From contig SVCW01000001.1 in NCBI GenBank assembly GCA_015058155.1, positions 1 to 64,000 of the forward strand: a stretch of DNA of 64,000 nt, written 5' to 3'. A model generated the notes under the pieces. The model saw nothing but the letters and a program-made list of their open reading frames with translations. It was not told the DNA's origin and searched no databases. Source of the stretch: Clostridiales bacterium. Lineage in GTDB: Bacteria; Bacillota; Clostridia; Peptostreptococcales; Anaerovoracaceae. A program made the translations under genes and the position numbers. Positions 3,891 to 48,355 of this stretch are shown piece by piece. How positions within the stretch are numbered: position 1 is the first letter of the stretch; each line of letters opens with the position of its first letter.

Positions 3891-4406
3891 ATGCGTTTCA
3901 AACACTGCCCGGACTGCGGAACAAAACTTGTAATGAAAAATATCGGTGATGAAGGAATGACACCATGGTGTGATAATTGCAGGAAACCTTGGTTTGATAT
4001 GTTCCCGACTTGTGTAATGACTCTCGTTGTTAATGAATACGAAGAGGCACTTCTTCAGAAGCAGGAATATCTTTCAGATAAGTACTGGAATCTCGTTACA
4101 GGATTTATGAAACCGGGAGAAACAGCAGAAGTTTCAGCCGTAAGAGAAGTCGAAGAAGAAGCAGGCATCACTGTTGAAAGTGCTGAATTTGCTGGTACAT
4201 ACTGGTTTGAGGCGGGCGGCCTTATGATGATAGGTTTTATCGCAAAGGCAAAGAAAGCACCGCTTACACCTTCAGTAGAAGTTTCCGAATCGAGATGGGT
4301 GCCGGTACACGAAGCCATAAACATGGTATTCCCTAAAGAAGAAGGAAACGTGACATATATCCTGCTTGAAAAGTATATAGAAGGTCTTGAAAACTCGGAT
4401 ATATAA
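3891..4406 (+). CDS. Nudix hydrolase with N-terminal zinc ribbon
   Basis: A 171-residue hydrolase of nucleoside-diphosphate-linked substrates, organised like NudC-type enzymes: a short zinc ribbon (C6-x2-C9 and C27-x2-C30) followed by a Nudix domain. The Nudix box is intact (GFMKPGETAEVSAVREVEEE AG), with the REVEEE metal-binding helix. I chose ATG 3891 because ACAGGAG (3877-3883) is 7 nt away; ATG 3885 would leave 1 nt. The substrate (NADH, ADP-ribose or other) cannot be told. The 3' end of the coding sequence forms half of its own terminator. Confidence 0.85.
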   Translation: MRFKHCPDCGTKLVMKNIGDEGMTPWCDNCRKPWFDMFPTCVMTLVVNEYEEALLQKQEYLSDKYWNLVTGFMKPGETAEVSAVREVEEEAGITVESAEFAGTYWFEAGGLMMIGFIAKAKKAPLTPSVEVSESRWVPVHEAINMVFPKEEGNVTYILLEKYIEGLENSDI

Positions 4407-4424
4407 GAAACAAGACCTTTTTAG
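4381..4424 (+). terminator. Intrinsic terminator overlapping the end of the Nudix gene
   Basis: AAGGTCTTG (4381-4389), inside the coding sequence, pairs with CAAGACCTT (4411-4419), followed by a T run. The arm sequence is the same GGTCTTG/CAAGACC seen in the hairpin array at 23327-23570. Confidence 0.8.
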
Positions 4425-14155: not shown

Positions 14156-15250
14156 ATGATCAATTTACTCGATTTAAACAAAAAGGAACTGGAAGATTTT
14201 TTTGTTAACATCGGTGAAAAGAAATTCCGGGCGCAGCAGACACGTGAGTGGATTTATCGCGGCGCCCGCGATTTTTCTGAAATGAAGAATCTTCCGGGAG
14301 AATTGAGAAACAGGCTTGAAAAGATGCAGGAAGCCGGAGAAATCACACTGGGCGGACTTAAGATACTCGATATGAGAAGTGCATCTGATGGAAGTACAGC
14401 CAAGTTTCTTTTCGAACTACACGACGGAAATACAATTGAAACTGTACTTATGAGATATAAGTATGGTAATTCAGTCTGCGTTTCATCACAGGCAGGTTGC
14501 CGTATGGGATGCAGATTCTGCGCAAGTACTCTCCTTGGCCTTCAGAGAAATCTGACTGCCGGTGAAATAGTAGCGCAGGTACTCGCATGTCTCAGATATG
14601 TGAAAGATGAAAATGACTATCCTCTTTCATCAAATGATGAGAGAATCGGACATATAGTAATAATGGGTACAGGTGAACCGCTTGATAATTATGAGAATGT
14701 GAAAAAGTTTACCGAGCTTCTCAATGCAAAGGACGGACTTGATCTTTCGCTCAGAAATATCACACTCTCAACATGCGGACTTGTTCCGGTTATAAAGAAG
14801 TTTACAGAAGAGATGCCGCAGGTAAATCTTGCTATTTCTCTCCATGCTTCAAACAATACTTCAAGAAGCGCACTCATGCCGGTAAATGATGCTTATCCGA
14901 TTGATGAACTCATGCCTGCAGTTTCGGCCCATGCAAGAAAGACAGGCAGAAGAGTAACTTTTGAGTATGCACTTACAGCAGGTGTGAACGATAGTGAAAA
15001 GCAGGCAGAAGACCTTGCGAATCTTTTAAGACATTATTTTAACCATCAGGCCGGAAACGGCGGACTCTGTCACGTCAACCTCATTCCGCTCAATAAAGTT
15101 GAGGAAATAGGAATGGAAGGTTCAGGAAGAAAACAGGTACTTGCTTTCCAGAAAAAGCTTGAAGATATGGGTATCCCTGCAACTATAAGACGTGAAATGG
15201 GCGCTGATATCGATGCGGCCTGCGGTCAGCTCAGACTCGGTAAAAAATAA
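14156..15250 (+). CDS. rlmN: Dual-specificity rRNA/tRNA adenine C2-methyltransferase RlmN
   Basis: A 364-residue radical-SAM enzyme that methylates C2 of A2503 in 23S rRNA and A37 in several tRNAs. The SAM/[4Fe-4S] motif is C115-RMG-C119-RF-C122. Other family segments are MGTGEPLDNYENV, ISLHASNN and NLIPLNKVEE. The second catalytic cysteine, which holds the methyl-transfer adduct, is C356 in DIDAACGQL. The length is normal. ATG 14156 has only a weak AAAGG site and lies 18 nt after ridA. The Cfr-like alternative is disfavoured by overall length and N-terminal domain. Confidence 0.95.
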   Translation: MINLLDLNKKELEDFFVNIGEKKFRAQQTREWIYRGARDFSEMKNLPGELRNRLEKMQEAGEITLGGLKILDMRSASDGSTAKFLFELHDGNTIETVLMRYKYGNSVCVSSQAGCRMGCRFCASTLLGLQRNLTAGEIVAQVLACLRYVKDENDYPLSSNDERIGHIVIMGTGEPLDNYENVKKFTELLNAKDGLDLSLRNITLSTCGLVPVIKKFTEEMPQVNLAISLHASNNTSRSALMPVNDAYPIDELMPAVSAHARKTGRRVTFEYALTAGVNDSEKQAEDLANLLRHYFNHQAGNGGLCHVNLIPLNKVEEIGMEGSGRKQVLAFQKKLEDMGIPATIRREMGADIDAACGQLRLGKK

Positions 15251-15346: not shown

Positions 15347-15769
15347 ATGGTGCAGTTATTGATCGGACATAAGGGAAGCGGAAAGACTAAGAGTATGTGT
15401 GACATGGCCAACGCAGCAGTTGAAACAGCCAATGGAAGCGTAGTATTCTTAAGCAAGAACGACAGACTGACTCATGATCTTAAATATAAGATCCGTGTCG
15501 TATGTATGGAAGACTACAAGGGAATTACTAATTCAGACGAATACATAGGATTTATTTACGGAATCATCAGCTCAGACCACGACCTTGAATACGTATACAT
15601 TGACAGTATTCTTAAGCACGCTGACTTCACAGTGGAAATGCTCCCTGAATTCCTTGCTAGATTAAAGGCTATTTCAGAAGAATACGGCACTAAATTTGTA
15701 GTGAGCGTAAGCCTTGACAAGGAAGAAATGGTCGGAGTAGATTTCTCGGATTTTGAAGTTCTCAACTAA
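15347..15769 (+). CDS. Small P-loop protein of unknown function
   Basis: A 140-residue protein opening with a Walker A motif, LLIGHKGSGKTKSM (residues 4-17). A hydrophobic strand ending in acid, EYVYIDSILKHAD (83-95), could serve as Walker B, and another strand, KFVVSVSLD, follows. It is too short for a full ATPase and has no sensor or helicase motifs. It appears cytoplasmic, with no membrane segment. It resembles small conserved Bacillota proteins sometimes labelled twitching-motility PilT-like. It has its own promoter, an AAGGAGG site, and ends 1 nt before the Nudix ATG, implying translational coupling. Confidence 0.7.
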   Translation: MVQLLIGHKGSGKTKSMCDMANAAVETANGSVVFLSKNDRLTHDLKYKIRVVCMEDYKGITNSDEYIGFIYGIISSDHDLEYVYIDSILKHADFTVEMLPEFLARLKAISEEYGTKFVVSVSLDKEEMVGVDFSDFEVLN

Positions 15770-23138: not shown

Positions 23139-23261
23139 TTAAGCTTGTCTTTTTTGCCCGTAGCTTTGTCAAGTATCGACATTCAGTGCTCACGTACTTC
23201 AAGTACGCTCCGCTCCTCATGTCTCACTTTCCTCGCTACGAACAAAAAATCCTGCGCTTAA
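23139..23261 (+). repeat. Palindromic repeat element, copy 2 (complete)
   Basis: Begins just after the TAG of the lipoprotein gene. TTAAGC (23139-23144) pairs with GCTTAA (23256-23261); TTTTTTG (23150-23156) with CAAAAAA (23243-23249); GTAGC (23160-23164) with GCTAC (23235-23239); AAGT/ACTT and GACAT/ATGTC further in; and CGTAC/GTACG at the tip. Compared with copy 1, four stems have changed on both strands while keeping pairing. Loop blocks CAGTGCTCA and GCTCCGCTCCTC are conserved. Confidence 0.88.
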
Positions 23262-23271
23262 GGAAGAATTC

Positions 23272-23300
23272 AAAGCGGCTCGTTCATGCGGGCCGCTTTT
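23272..23300 (+). terminator. Terminator-like hairpin after repeat copy 2
   Basis: AAAGCGGC (23272-23279) pairs with GCCGCTTT (23292-23299), loop 12 nt, then TTTTCGCG. A short T run makes it a plausible but weak terminator. Confidence 0.55.
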
Positions 23301-23326
23301 CGCGTCCTTCGCAAAAAATGCATAAT

Positions 23327-23570
23327 GGTCTTGTCTACTTAAAAAAATTTAATAATAAGACCCTTTTTTGCTTGGATTTTTACGCTTTTGTTACAAAAAG
23401 GTCTTGCTTGTGGAATGCATTAAAGTACAAGACCATTTAGGTTTGTGAAATTACAAAATCGCTTTGAAATAGGTCTTGTTTATTTGGTTATTGTTTAAGA
23501 TAAGACCTTTTTCCTATATTCAATAATTGAATCAGGTCTTATTATTGTAGTTTTTCCTGAGTTAAGATCC
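23327..23570 (+). repeat. Array of GGTCTTG/CAAGACC hairpins, about 72-nt period
   Basis: Four inverted repeats in a row: GGTCTT(G) at 23327, 23400, 23472 and 23535, with partners at 23357-23362, 23428-23434, 23502-23507 and a decayed AAGATCC at 23564-23570. Start-to-start distances are 73, 72 and 63 nt. Units 1 and 3 are followed by T runs and look like intrinsic terminators; unit 2 is not. The arms match the terminators at 4381 and 26146. Loop sequences are not conserved. Confidence 0.8.
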
Positions 23571-23587
23571 ACGCTATTTGTGATATT

Positions 23588-23899
23588 GTGCCTGTATTTT
23601 GTATTTTGCTTTTGTGGGCACAATCCAGCATTCTTATAATGCATTTCATCAATCTGCAGGTGCCTGTGTTATTAAAAATGTGCCTAAAAGTTACATATTG
23701 CGAGCTGTGGGCACAAAATACTCTTTTCTTTGTGTGTAAAGGTAGCTTTTTTCTGTATTTTGATTTATTGAGTGCCTGAGATTCGCTTTTTTCTTTCTGT
23801 GGGCACAAAATACTCTTCTGATTGCTTGAAAAACTTTATCTTTTCCAGTGTTTTGATTCATAGTGTGCCTAGATTTCACATTTTACAGGATGTGGGCAT
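23588..23899 (+). repeat. Array of GTGCC/GGGCAC hairpins, 92-93-nt period
   Basis: Four units of GTGCCT, a 22-23-nt loop, then GGGCAC (GGGCAT in the last). GTGCCT starts at 23588, 23680, 23772 and 23865, spaced 92, 92 and 93 nt; partners start at 23616, 23709, 23801 and 23894. An extra GTGCCT occurs at 23660. The flank AAAATACTCTT follows units 2 and 3, and TTTTGATT precedes units 3 and 4. No long open frame, no ribosome site, no cas genes. The sequence is AT-rich and clearly arose by tandem duplication. Confidence 0.82.
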
Positions 23900-24043
23900 A
23901 AAATCTGCGTTACTTAGATTGTTGATCGGGTTTCCAAGCTTCGGTTTCTTTAAAGGACCATCAGTAGTTAAATAGGTGGACAAGTAAGTGGATAGTAATT
24001 TAGAATATAATTAAGATGAGTACATATGAAAGGACTGAATTTA

Positions 24044-24559
24044 ATGAAAGCTAACGATCGTATTGATATAAAACTGGCGGACATCACAAAGCTTGATGTT
24101 GAATGTATCGTAAACGCAGCAAACAAGAGTCTTCTTGGCGGAGGCGGAGTGGATGGTGCGATTCATCGCGCGGCTGGTCCGGAGCTGCTTAAAGAGTGCA
24201 GAACTCTTAACGGATGTGAGACGGGCGAAGCAAAGATTACAAAGGGCTACAAGCTTAAAGCGAAGTATGTAATTCATACTGTAGGGCCGATTTACAGTGG
24301 GAGCGCTGATGATCCTGTGAAACTAAAAGGTTGTTACTGGAATTCTCTTGAACTTGCAAGGAAGTACAATATTCACAGTATTGCTTTTCCGGCAATTTCG
24401 GCAGGTGTTTACGGCTATCCGATGAAGGAAGCGGCACAGATAGCACTTGCGACTGTTTCAGAATGGCTCGAAAGTAATGCGGACTACGAAATGTTGGTTA
24501 CATTGGTTTGCTTCAGCGACGGTGCGGCAAAAATTTATGAAGAAATTGCGTTGAAATAG
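24044..24559 (+). CDS. Macro domain ADP-ribose hydrolase (YmdB/MacroD-like)
   Basis: A 171-residue macro domain that binds ADP-ribose and probably deacetylates O-acetyl-ADP-ribose or removes ADP-ribose from proteins. Key segments are [55 protein letters not shown] and [15 protein letters not shown], all matching MacroD/YmdB, including the catalytic-loop Asn and Asp. Start 24044 is preferred because AAAGGA lies 9 nt upstream; an in-frame ATG at 24026 adds six residues without a ribosome site. It is a single gene with a strong terminator directly after it. Confidence 0.92.
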
Positions 24560-24727: not shown

Positions 24728-25465
24728 ATGAATAAGAGATTAAGAAGAATCGCAGCAGCTATGTGCATTACATCGTTACTGGCTACCGGGGCTTCTGTAT
24801 ATGCAGAAGAAAATGCGGAGTCTTACGATATTGACTACATCGGTGGGAATTTCACAGTTACAGAAACTGAAGATGGGACACTTTATGCAGGCAGCACTTG
24901 TGTTGCGAGAGCACTCAGGTTTATGGAAAGATTCATGCCTGGTTTTGATATTCCGGATTTTGAACTGCCTGTAATAAGGCCGGGAAGTAAGCCGGAAACA
25001 GAAAGCAGGCCTGAAAACCCTGATAACAAGCCGGAAACAGAAAGCAGGCCTGAAAACCCCGGAAACGGCGGCCCTGTAAATGTAAGCGCTTATGCACGCC
25101 AGGTTGCAGAACTTACAAACGATGAAAGAAGTGAGGCCGGTCTCAAGGATCTGAGGCTCAGTAGTGAACTTTCAGAAGTAGCACAGCGCAAGGCTGAAGA
25201 TATGAGAGATAATGGCTACTTCTCGCACACTTCACCGACATATGGTACGCCGTTTGAAATGATGACAGAGTTTGGCATCAGTTACAAGACAGCCGGAGAG
25301 AATATTGCGAAAGGCCAGAGAACTCCTGAAAGCGTAGTTGATGCATGGATGAATTCAAAAGGTCACAGAGACAATATCCTGAATACTTCATATCAGAAAA
25401 TCGGTATAGGTTACTGTACTGACGCCAGTGGCAATACATACTGGGTGCAGATGTTTACGGACTAG
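24728..25465 (+). CDS. Secreted CAP/SCP-domain protein (YkwD-like)
   Basis: A 245-residue exported protein: signal peptide at 1-26 (IAAAMCITSLLATGASVYA), a linker region, then a CAP domain from about 118 to the end. CAP hallmarks are VAELTNDERSEAGL, MRDNGYFSHTSP, TAGENIAKG, WMNSKGHRDNILN and IGIGYCTDASGNTYWVQMFTD. The linker contains two copies of a 15-residue unit, KPETESRPENPxN, arranged in tandem, a likely length-variable spacer. Clostridial CAP proteins are often induced in sporulation or bind the cell wall; the activity here is unknown. Confidence 0.9.
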   Translation: MNKRLRRIAAAMCITSLLATGASVYAEENAESYDIDYIGGNFTVTETEDGTLYAGSTCVARALRFMERFMPGFDIPDFELPVIRPGSKPETESRPENPDNKPETESRPENPGNGGPVNVSAYARQVAELTNDERSEAGLKDLRLSSELSEVAQRKAEDMRDNGYFSHTSPTYGTPFEMMTEFGISYKTAGENIAKGQRTPESVVDAWMNSKGHRDNILNTSYQKIGIGYCTDASGNTYWVQMFTD

Positions 25466-26145: not shown

Positions 26146-26192
26146 AAGGTCTTGCGTGGCAGAAAAAGTGTCATGCAGGACCTTGTTTTTTT
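26146..26192 (+). terminator. Intrinsic terminator after DUF4230 gene
   Basis: AAGGTCTTGC (26146-26155) pairs with GCAGGACCTT (26175-26184), 10 pairs with one G-U, followed by G and seven T residues. It again uses a GGTCTTG arm. Confidence 0.88.
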
Positions 26193-46371: not shown

Positions 46372-46432
46372 GGCTTGTCTTTTTAGCCCGTAGCATTGTC
46401 AAGCATCGGTGTTCGGTACTCACTTACGTCAA
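46371..46432 (+). repeat. Palindromic repeat element, copy 4 (5' half only)
   Basis: GGGCTTGTCTTTTTAGCCCG, then TAGCATTGTCAAGCATCGGT and GTTCGGTACTCACTTACGTC reproduce the left half of the element up to the tip. The right half, including GCTCCGCTCCTC and the ATCCTGCGC arm, is absent; AT-rich sequence with GTGCC hairpins begins instead. It lies directly at the YitT stop codon, as in the complete copies. Confidence 0.8.
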
Positions 46433-46463: not shown

Positions 46464-46640
46464 TGTGATATTGTGCCCAAAACATGGTATTTATAGTGTT
46501 TTGGGCATAAATTCTTAAAAAATACTAACGAAAATAACGAATTCTTGCTGAAAAATCATGTATTTTGTGCCTATTTTTGATGATTAGGCTCTTTTAGGCA
46601 GTTTTTGTGCCTTGTAGAAGGCAGTACATTGCCTAAATTT
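46464..46640 (+). repeat. Second locus of GTGCC/GGGCA hairpins
   Basis: GTGCCC (46473-46478) and GGGCAT (46503-46508) with a 24-nt loop match the units at 23588-23899. The preceding TGTGATATTGTGCC is identical to the lead-in of the first unit there. Further GTGCCT copies at about 46566 and 46610 with several AGGC/GCCT partners follow in more decayed form. The stretch fills the gap between palindrome copy 4 and the tRNA gene. Confidence 0.7.
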
Positions 46641-46657
46641 ATTGTTTTTACAAATAT

Positions 46658-46732
46658 GGGGCATTAGCTTAATGGATAGAGTAGCAGCTTCCGACGCTGT
46701 TGATCCGGGTTCGATTCCCGGATGCCTCACCA
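46658..46732 (+). tRNA. tRNA-Arg (anticodon CCG)
   Basis: A complete 75-nt cloverleaf with encoded CCA. The acceptor stem GGGGCAT pairs with ATGCCTC (one G-U); the D arm is GCTTAATGGATAGAGT; the anticodon stem GCAGC/GCTGT holds loop TTCCGAC, with CCG at 46691-46693; the T arm is CCGGGTTCGATTCCCGG. It reads CGG arginine codons. The gene is followed by a palindromic terminator into which an insertion sequence has jumped. Confidence 0.95.
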
Positions 46733-46906: not shown

Positions 46907-48355
46907 ATGCTTTCTAAGAATCAGAAAAATACTTCTCAAGTTCAGATGGTTTCTCTTGATCAGCTTGTTCCACAGGACCATCTTCTTCGAAAAATTGATA
47001 AAGCGGTTGATTTTAGCTTCATTTATGACCTTGTAGAAGAAAAATACTCCGCAGATACAGGTCGTCCAAGCCTCGACCCTGTAATGCTCATAAAGATTCC
47101 ACTCATTCAGTACATGTATGGTATTAAGAGTATGAGGCAGACAATTAAGGAAATCGAAGTAAATGTAGCGTTCAGATGGTTCTTAGGCCTTGACTTCTAT
47201 GATGATGTGCCGCATTTCAGCACATTCGGTAAGAATTACAAGAGAAGGTTTGAAGGTACTGATCTTTTTGAGCAGATATTTGTGCAGATACTTATGCAGT
47301 GTATGAGTCACAGTCTTGTTTCTACTGACGAAGTCTTTATCGATGCCACTCATGTCAAAGCCTGTGCAAACAGAAAGAAGGCAAAGAATATCCTTGTAGC
47401 AAAGAAGGCGGCACGTTTTTACGACGAAGCACTTAAGCAGGAAATTCAGAGTGACAGAGAAGCTCACGGCAAGAAGCCACTCAAGGATGATGAGGATAAG
47501 GATGACAACGACAGTGACAATACTTCAGGCGGCACCGGAGGAGAAGAGAACTCTGATTTAAAAGAACGTAAGGTCAGTACGACAGATCCTGAAAGCGGAT
47601 GGTTTCATAAAGGAGAACACAAAGAAGTCTTTGCATACGCGATAGAAGCAGCGTGTGACAAGAACGGCTGGATTCTCGGATACACAATACATCCTGGAAA
47701 TGAACATGACAGTATGACATTCCCAGCACTCTACGAAAAGCTTAGTGGTTTGTTCAAACTTGACAAGTTAATTCTCGATGCAGGATACAAAACACCAGCA
47801 ATAGCAAAACTGCTTCTTGATGCAAATATCACGCCTGTATTTCCATACAAGGGACAAGGTGGAAAGAAGGGATTCATGAAAAAGCATGAGTATGTGTACG
47901 ATGAGTATCACGATTGCTACATATGCCCTGAGAATCAGATTCTGACGTACCGTACAACAAACAGAGAAGGCTATCGTGAGTACAAGAGCAACGGTAACAT
48001 TTGTGCAAACTGTCCTAGACTGAGTGAGTGCACAAAGAGCAAAAACCATGAAAAGGTCATCATGCAGCACGTATGGAATGACTACATGGAAATATGCGAA
48101 GACATCAGGTACACAACCGGTATGAAGGAACTCTACAACAAACGAAAAGAAACAATAGAGAGGATCTTCGGTACTGCGAAAGAGCATCACGGGATGCGAT
48201 ACACACAGCAGATAGGTAAAGAGAAAATGGCGATGAAAGTCGGCATGACTTTCACATGCATAAACATAAAGAAACTGGTAAACATCCTCGATATGAGGGA
48301 GAAAAGCAGGATAATGAAAGACTGTTTTTCTAAAAATGTCTTCAGTTTCGCTTAG
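46907..48355 (+). CDS. IS1182-family DDE transposase
   Basis: A 482-residue transposase. The N-terminal segment VSLDQLVPQDHLLRKIDKAVDFSFIYDLVEEKYSADTGRPS and the DUF772-like IKIPLIQYMYGIKSMRQTIKEIEVNVAFRWFLGLDFYDDVPHFSTF are typical of IS1182/ISL3-like DDE enzymes. The acidic residues are within DEVFIDATHVKA (first Asp), DKLILDAGYKT (second Asp) and the terminal ETIERIFGTAKEHHGMRY (Glu). A charged Asp/Glu-rich linker (DDEDKDDNDSDN) lies between the first two, and a Cys-rich stretch (C-PENQ...CANCPRLSEC) precedes the last. No frameshift. GAAAGGACGG precedes ATG 46907. Confidence 0.92.
   Translation: MLSKNQKNTSQVQMVSLDQLVPQDHLLRKIDKAVDFSFIYDLVEEKYSADTGRPSLDPVMLIKIPLIQYMYGIKSMRQTIKEIEVNVAFRWFLGLDFYDDVPHFSTFGKNYKRRFEGTDLFEQIFVQILMQCMSHSLVSTDEVFIDATHVKACANRKKAKNILVAKKAARFYDEALKQEIQSDREAHGKKPLKDDEDKDDNDSDNTSGGTGGEENSDLKERKVSTTDPESGWFHKGEHKEVFAYAIEAACDKNGWILGYTIHPGNEHDSMTFPALYEKLSGLFKLDKLILDAGYKTPAIAKLLLDANITPVFPYKGQGGKKGFMKKHEYVYDEYHDCYICPENQILTYRTTNREGYREYKSNGNICANCPRLSECTKSKNHEKVIMQHVWNDYMEICEDIRYTTGMKELYNKRKETIERIFGTAKEHHGMRYTQQIGKEKMAMKVGMTFTCINIKKLVNILDMREKSRIMKDCFSKNVFSFA

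Follow-up and report, generated by a model that had tools for sequence, protein, structure and literature searches.

What kind of element is the row of inverted repeats that lies between two genes of this Clostridiales genome? The stretch analyzed here, the window, is 64,000 nucleotides long and corresponds to positions 1 to 64000 of contig C29 of an assembly (G000) of 1.70 Mb in 60 contigs. A preliminary description, made from the sequence by itself, had placed four hairpins with GTGCC and GGGCAC arms at 23588, 23680, 23772 and 23865, spaced 92 to 93 nucleotides apart, and had offered small RNAs, protein-binding sites or a decayed tandem repeat with selected arms as explanations. We recovered all four inverted repeats (23588-23621, 23680-23714, 23772-23806, and 23865-23898; 34 to 35 nucleotides each) with start-to-start distances of 92, 92, and 93 and the consensus GTGCCYR..GGGCAC, the last unit ending in GGGCAT; once an outer T..A pair is counted, the dyads span 36 to 37 bp. 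The window holds three matches to the strict pattern where 0.12 would be expected, and none of 100 shuffles reached three. Two features had been missed: a lone GTGCCT half-site at 23660 and, directly upstream, a second array of the form GGTCTTR-N21/22-YAAGACC (23327-23569; steps of about 72, 73, and 63). Both arrays lie in the intergenic region 23139-24025, which is flanked by two plus-strand genes; the upstream one encodes a 248-aa protein with no Pfam match. The features of this region are as follows.

23327-23362, no strand: GGTCTTR array, dyad 1
23400-23434, no strand: GGTCTTR array, dyad 2
23472-23507, no strand: GGTCTTR array, dyad 3
23535-23569, no strand: GGTCTTR array, dyad 4, containing a single mismatch, centre 62.5 bp (6.0 turns) past that of dyad 3
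23587-23622, no strand: GTGCC array, dyad 1, TGTGCCTG-N19-GTGGGCACA, 36 bp
23660-23665, plus strand: extra lone GTGCCT half-site between GTGCC dyads 1 and 2
23679-23715, no strand: GTGCC array, dyad 2, 37 bp, centre 92.5 bp (8.9 turns) past that of dyad 1
23771-23807, no strand: GTGCC array, dyad 3, 37 bp, 92 bp past dyad 2
23864-23900, no strand: GTGCC array, dyad 4, 37 bp, with GGGCAT as its right arm, 93 bp past dyad 3
23977-24006, plus strand: promoter-like TGGACA-N18-TAGAAT in the gap that separates the GTGCC array from the macro-domain gene, no stronger than the shuffled background
24026-24559, plus strand: downstream gene, macro-domain protein of 177 aa (PF01661, E = 2.7e-48)

Conservation within the GTGCC array is concentrated in the arms, which are 75 to 100% identical among units, while the interiors are 50 to 60% identical (shuffled interiors, 45 ± 10%), in agreement with the earlier statement that the loop sequences differ. 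The flanks, described as partly conserved, are so only for spacers 2 and 3 (70% identical; shuffled, 51 ± 5%); the spacer 3′ of unit 1 is unlike the others (48 to 52%). Tandem Repeats Finder (TRF) describes the later units as 1.9 copies of a 92-nt tandem repeat at 76%. A CRISPR had been dismissed, and the repeat architecture bears this out: CRISPRs have near-identical repeats of about 23 to 47 bp with unique spacers between them, alongside cas genes, while here only arms of 6 to 8 bp are conserved and the interiors differ. Elsewhere in the window, a gene for a CAP-domain protein contains two tandem 39-nt (13-codon) repeats that are 92% identical (24989-25066).

A genome-wide search for the strict GTGCC pattern returned the same three window matches and nothing else in G000. 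Arrays of the same geometry do occur elsewhere in G000 and in two other genomes; an absence of further copies, named in the preliminary description as grounds for a neutral duplication, is thus not what we found. To locate these arrays, we used a de novo finder that reports neighboring hairpins with common arms of any sequence at any spacing of 55 to 120; it covered 1.03 Mb of G000 (61% of the genome) and returned almost no arrays on shuffled sequence. GGTCTTR arms occur at eight places in G000, counting the window array, and the interiors are unlike at each. Three places are further arrays (C40:70804, C49:380, and C36:2401, the last with four dyads spaced by exactly 73), and four are solitary dyads (4383 and 26148 in the window, one in C48, and one in C52); a match at C36:38075 proved on inspection to be coding sequence and was dropped. 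The de novo scan also found AGTAAAC..GTTTACT arrays at C36:114869 (five dyads) and C13:6387 and an array with TTCTACAAC-like arms at C24:7406. A GGTGGAM..KTCCACC array is present in C22 in two copies (C22a and C22b) about 2.2 kb apart, and a TGTGCCY..RGGCACA array at C52:28853-29575 comprises eight dyads, 93 or 104 apart, whose interiors are alike. Because its arms and 93-bp step are shared with the homogeneous C52 array, the window GTGCC array looks like an older relative of it. A decayed tandem repeat with selected arms, as proposed earlier, is compatible with the GTGCC array taken by itself, because this younger array of eight similar units exists. The window also holds a third, more degenerate array, with dyads TGTGCCC..GGGCATA, TGCCTA..TAGGCA, and TGCCTA..GGGGCA. 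The additional features are listed below.

4383-4417, no strand: solitary GGTCTTR dyad that overlaps an open reading frame (ORF) at its end, with T-rich DNA after the dyad
26148-26182, no strand: solitary GGTCTTR dyad 3′ of an ORF; its hairpin is strong (-22.2 kcal/mol), and T-rich DNA follows
46472-46664, no strand: third array of the window, with degenerate TGCCY arms, ending at a tRNA-Arg, centres 93.5 and 62.5 bp apart
23143-23224, 1180-1261, and 46373-46408 in the window, 15557-15633 of locus L086 (C48), and 14410-14443 of locus L080 (C36): copies of a repeat of about 82 bp

The last of these is a dispersed intergenic repeat (CTTGTCTTTTTTGCCCGTAGC.TTGTCAAG..) whose copies are 86 to 97% identical and which adjoins two arrays. 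Directly past the tRNA-Arg that bounds the third array lies a 482-aa ORF (46907-48355) that resembles an IS1182-type transposase by eye. Two similar proteins of 263 and 267 aa, RibD/DHFR-like by eye (L082, 15410-16201; L148, 6449-7252), each flank a different array, one with AGTAAAC and the other with TTCTACAAC arms.

The arm families have unrelated arms and unrelated interiors but share one geometry. Dyad length peaks at 35 bp for GGTCTTR, 37 for TGTGCCY, 36 to 37 for AGTAAAC, and 37 for GGTGGAM, with other lengths near background; across all arrays the range is 34 to 38 bp, with conserved arms and mostly dissimilar interiors. Clusters of dyads of length 35 to 37 number 18 in 734 kb of G000 stretches and 1 in shuffled sequence, and in three relatives of the genus (G001-G003; 502 kb) they are at background. 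Distances between the centres of neighboring dyads are 42, 52, 62.5, 72 to 75, 92 to 94, 104 to 105, and 146 bp, corresponding to 4, 5, 6, 7, 9, 10, and 14 helical turns. When periods of 8 to 16 bp were scanned with an automated list of spacings (n = 16, drawn from four arm families, each distinct step being counted once per array), the best period was 10.40 bp with a phase of 0.007 turn (R = 0.907), that is, whole-turn spacing, and none of 20,000 null sets, uniform or smeared, was as good. Because the finder allowed any spacing from 55 to 120, this period is not a product of the finder. A longer spacing list, put together by hand and including a fifth family (n = 24), again gave 10.40 bp (R = 0.787), with P = 5e-5 for one value per array, although the phasing P values are optimistic because some of the spacings were collected by hand and because arrays may share ancestry, as the C22a and C22b duplicates do. 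Adding two other genomes (n = 29) gave 10.35 bp (R = 0.754). The steps that fit poorly are 76 and 79 in C24 and 90 in one of these other genomes (G336).

The two other genomes came from a scan of 924 kb of other Clostridia, mostly Lachnospiraceae metagenome-assembled genomes (MAGs), around relatives of a neighboring protein, which yielded two more cases of the same architecture with other arms. Lachnospiraceae bacterium RGIG4653 (G336) carries 52 TGGGCAT-N20-24-ATGCCCA dyads (control, 1), most of them grouped by four in dispersed cassettes of about 230 bp, within which the starts lie about 72, 53, and 72 apart; in one copy the 53-bp step is lengthened to 63. In each of the four slots, six to seven of the outer positions hardly vary, a central A/T run is present in slots 1, 2, and 4, and similarity between cassettes drops just outside the outer dyads. 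The interiors of slot 4 are mostly unable to pair, and those of slots 1 and 2 pair marginally (P = 0.053 and 0.043). An Agathobacter sp. (G337) carries 28 TCAGTAA..TTACTGA dyads (control, 2), set at 53-bp intervals in arrays that reach 8 dyads. Between an Agathobacter array and an HD-domain-like gene there is a small cysteine-rich ORF (L271, 12329-12463).

A DNA similarity search of 99 genomes with 23300-23960 returned chance-level matches only, an apparent match in C12 being coding sequence. In 297 genomes of the family, GTGCCTN15-30GTGGGCAC gave single, mostly coding-like matches and no arrays. The tandem GGTCTTR pattern had zero matches in collections of genome contigs and viral contigs, as did the tandem TGTGCCY and AGTAAAC patterns in viral contigs. 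The arms are therefore genome specific, while the geometry recurs. Long arrays of palindromes also occur in another genus of the family (G035; L130, L132, and L133). Their arms vary, the core between the arms, AATAAGGCTTWGCGG, is conserved, and the period is 86 or 96; they are a different, BIME-like repeat and were not counted.

Are these dyads read as RNA or as DNA? By eye they had suggested RNA hairpins with covarying interiors, an impression that a test of interior pairing did not support: the pairing of GGTCTTR interiors does not exceed that of interiors shuffled between dyads (P = 0.1 to 0.2). At arm position 7 of this family, A faces C in 4 of 18 dyads and G faces A in 1 of 18, and each half-site is therefore conserved on its own strand. 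Among 32 dyads, 15 have a central A/T run of at least 4 (null, 6.3 ± 2.1; 0 of 2,000 null sets). Small RNAs in tandem, or hairpins of a structured RNA, the small-RNA option of the preliminary description, would account for arms that are able to pair, for position 7 of the young C52 array, where both sides change together in a hairpin-like manner (C-G and T-A), and for the four solitary GGTCTTR dyads, which resemble gene-end hairpins and some of which are followed by T-rich DNA. Against this, the interiors do not pair above chance, whole-turn spacing plays no role in RNA, no above-threshold Rfam match was found, and no terminator-like site was found in the array region; we consider an RNA identity very unlikely. 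Whole-turn spacing, nonpairing interiors, independent half-sites, and central A-runs instead favor the second of the options put forward earlier, and they point to dyads that are double-stranded protein-binding sites stacked on one face of the helix.

We therefore favor, on balance and with some reserve, a reading of the GTGCC array as one member of a set of dispersed, phased dyad arrays in which a dimeric protein would sit on each dyad, aligned along one helix face, as in BIME-like architectural repeats. Each dyad would consist of two inverted half-sites of about 7 bp that bound 34 to 38 bp, with a loosely constrained interior in which a central A/T run is common. A candidate dimeric DNA-binding protein may occupy the double-stranded dyad through its outer half-sites, A-tract bending may help the dimer to bind, and several dimers aligned on one face could form a nucleoprotein complex. 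Each arm family would be read by its own, possibly paralogous, protein.

How such arrays serve the cell could be explained differently. Regulators that bind cooperatively or loop DNA typically have helically phased sites, and the arrays might be gene-specific operators or upstream activating arrays through which a transcription factor controls the gene that follows, in this case the macro-domain gene. With a simple ORF caller, which was used for gene context in both G000 and G336, 9 of the 10 G000 arrays examined have codirectional genes on both sides and precede a gene start (no call was made for the tenth), and the end of the C40 GGTCTTR array adjoins a ribosome-binding site. The genes downstream are unrelated, however (macro domain, FMN reductase-like, RibD-like, and others), 7 of 16 classifiable G336 cassettes lie between convergent genes, and up to 8 dyads per site would be unusual for an operator, so that we regard this explanation as unlikely, if worth keeping in mind. 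Because the arrays are dispersed, often multicopy, and in one relative (G336) often between convergent genes, and because their neighbors in G000 are unrelated, we think of them as architectural repeats that are interspersed and partly mobile rather than as gene-specific operators.

Mobility could also mean that the arrays are nonautonomous, MITE-like elements whose dyads are transposase-binding sites, old arrays retaining the sites alone. The many G336 copies of a cassette of about 230 bp, with similarity lost just outside the outer dyads, and the two similar GGTGGAM blocks in C22 fit this idea, but a search of the Y1 family identified no cognate transposase, an unsystematic look identified no target-site duplications, and the G000 arrays have no one common layout; its probability appears low. 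Lowest of all is that of neutral remains of tandem duplication. Such remains would fit the 70% identity of GTGCC spacers 2 and 3 and the existence of a younger homogeneous TGTGCCY array; they would hardly leave conserved arms around interiors of near-random identity, exact periods of 73 or 75 despite unrelated sequence, or whole-turn spacing in unrelated arm families.

The closest known kinds of element to these phased arrays are REPs and BIMEs, the dRS3/NIME arrays of Neisseria, and MITEs. REPs bear a GTAG or CGTC tag at one end and have stems of 5 to 13 bp and loops of 2 to 20 bp, and mobilization of GTAG REPs by RAYT tyrosine transposases has been hypothesized (PMC3733652). Like REPs and BIMEs, the present dyads are short intergenic palindromes that are dispersed and clustered into arrays; they differ in whole-turn spacing, in having no constant tag, in half-sites that vary by array, and in an interior of 20 to 24 bp that is not conserved. 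Neither GTAG nor CGTC tags were found, the half-site ends being GGTCTTR, TGTGCCY, AGTAAAC, and GGTGGAM in G000 and TGGGCAT and TCAGTAA elsewhere. A RAYT gene flanked by the repeats would also be expected of a REP system. No RAYT (Y1) transposase was found in G336 or G337, and G000 has an IS200-type TnpA and a partial copy; on the tests applied here, we rejected a REP/RAYT identity. The complete IS200-type tnpA has end hairpins of its own (L076, 8467-8935; G000:C29:112467-112935), and its partial relative is at the end of contig C57.

In the Neisseria dRS3/NIME repeats, which form intergenic arrays, a variable core is bounded by short inverted arms that are conserved; dRS3 is about 20 bp long with a single arm sequence. 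The likeness lies in inverted arms around a variable core, arrayed between genes; the dyads described here are 34 to 38 bp, fall into several arm families, and are helically phased. MITEs are short multicopy elements with terminal inverted repeats, target-site duplications, and a cognate transposase. They resemble the G336 cassette in that it is multicopy, about 230 bp, and has inverted terminal sequences, whereas here phased dyads make up the whole element and the arrays of the window genome are not copies of one element. The BirA biotin operator, TTGTAAACC-N-GGTTTACAA, has a centre of about 14 to 16 bp, with about 16 to 18 bp between GTAAAC and GTTTAC, and lies next to biotin genes. It also has inverted outer half-sites and a nonconserved centre, and the AGTAAAC family contains GTAAAC as well; however, 23 bp separate GTAAAC and GTTTAC in AGTAAAC dyads, and the other arm families are unrelated. 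No biotin genes were recognized beside arrays on inspection, and a survey of HTH_11 across the genus gave similar counts and no lead to a binding protein; given the difference in spacing and the lack of an HTH_11 expansion, we rejected a BirA/HTH_11 identity. To our knowledge, the geometries of type III toxin-antitoxin RNAs, integron attC sites, and TIGR arrays do not fit phased arrays. Searches of open papers turned up no account of such arrays, which is weak evidence of novelty.

We tentatively propose, at something short of even confidence, that these arrays belong to an undescribed and widespread intergenic class in gut Clostridia: dyads of 34 to 38 bp with a central A-tract, spaced by whole turns, whose half-sites turn over while the geometry stays fixed, read by a candidate paralogous family of DNA-binding proteins. 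If so, the arrays would be a sequence-visible footprint of nucleoprotein assembly in uncultured gut Clostridia, and the rule of fixed dyad length and whole-turn spacing could be searched for in any genome irrespective of the letters. Half-turn insertions would provide a simple test of a kind missing for most interspersed bacterial repeats, and the arrays would offer a way to reach a new family of DNA-binding proteins and to follow the turnover of their sites.
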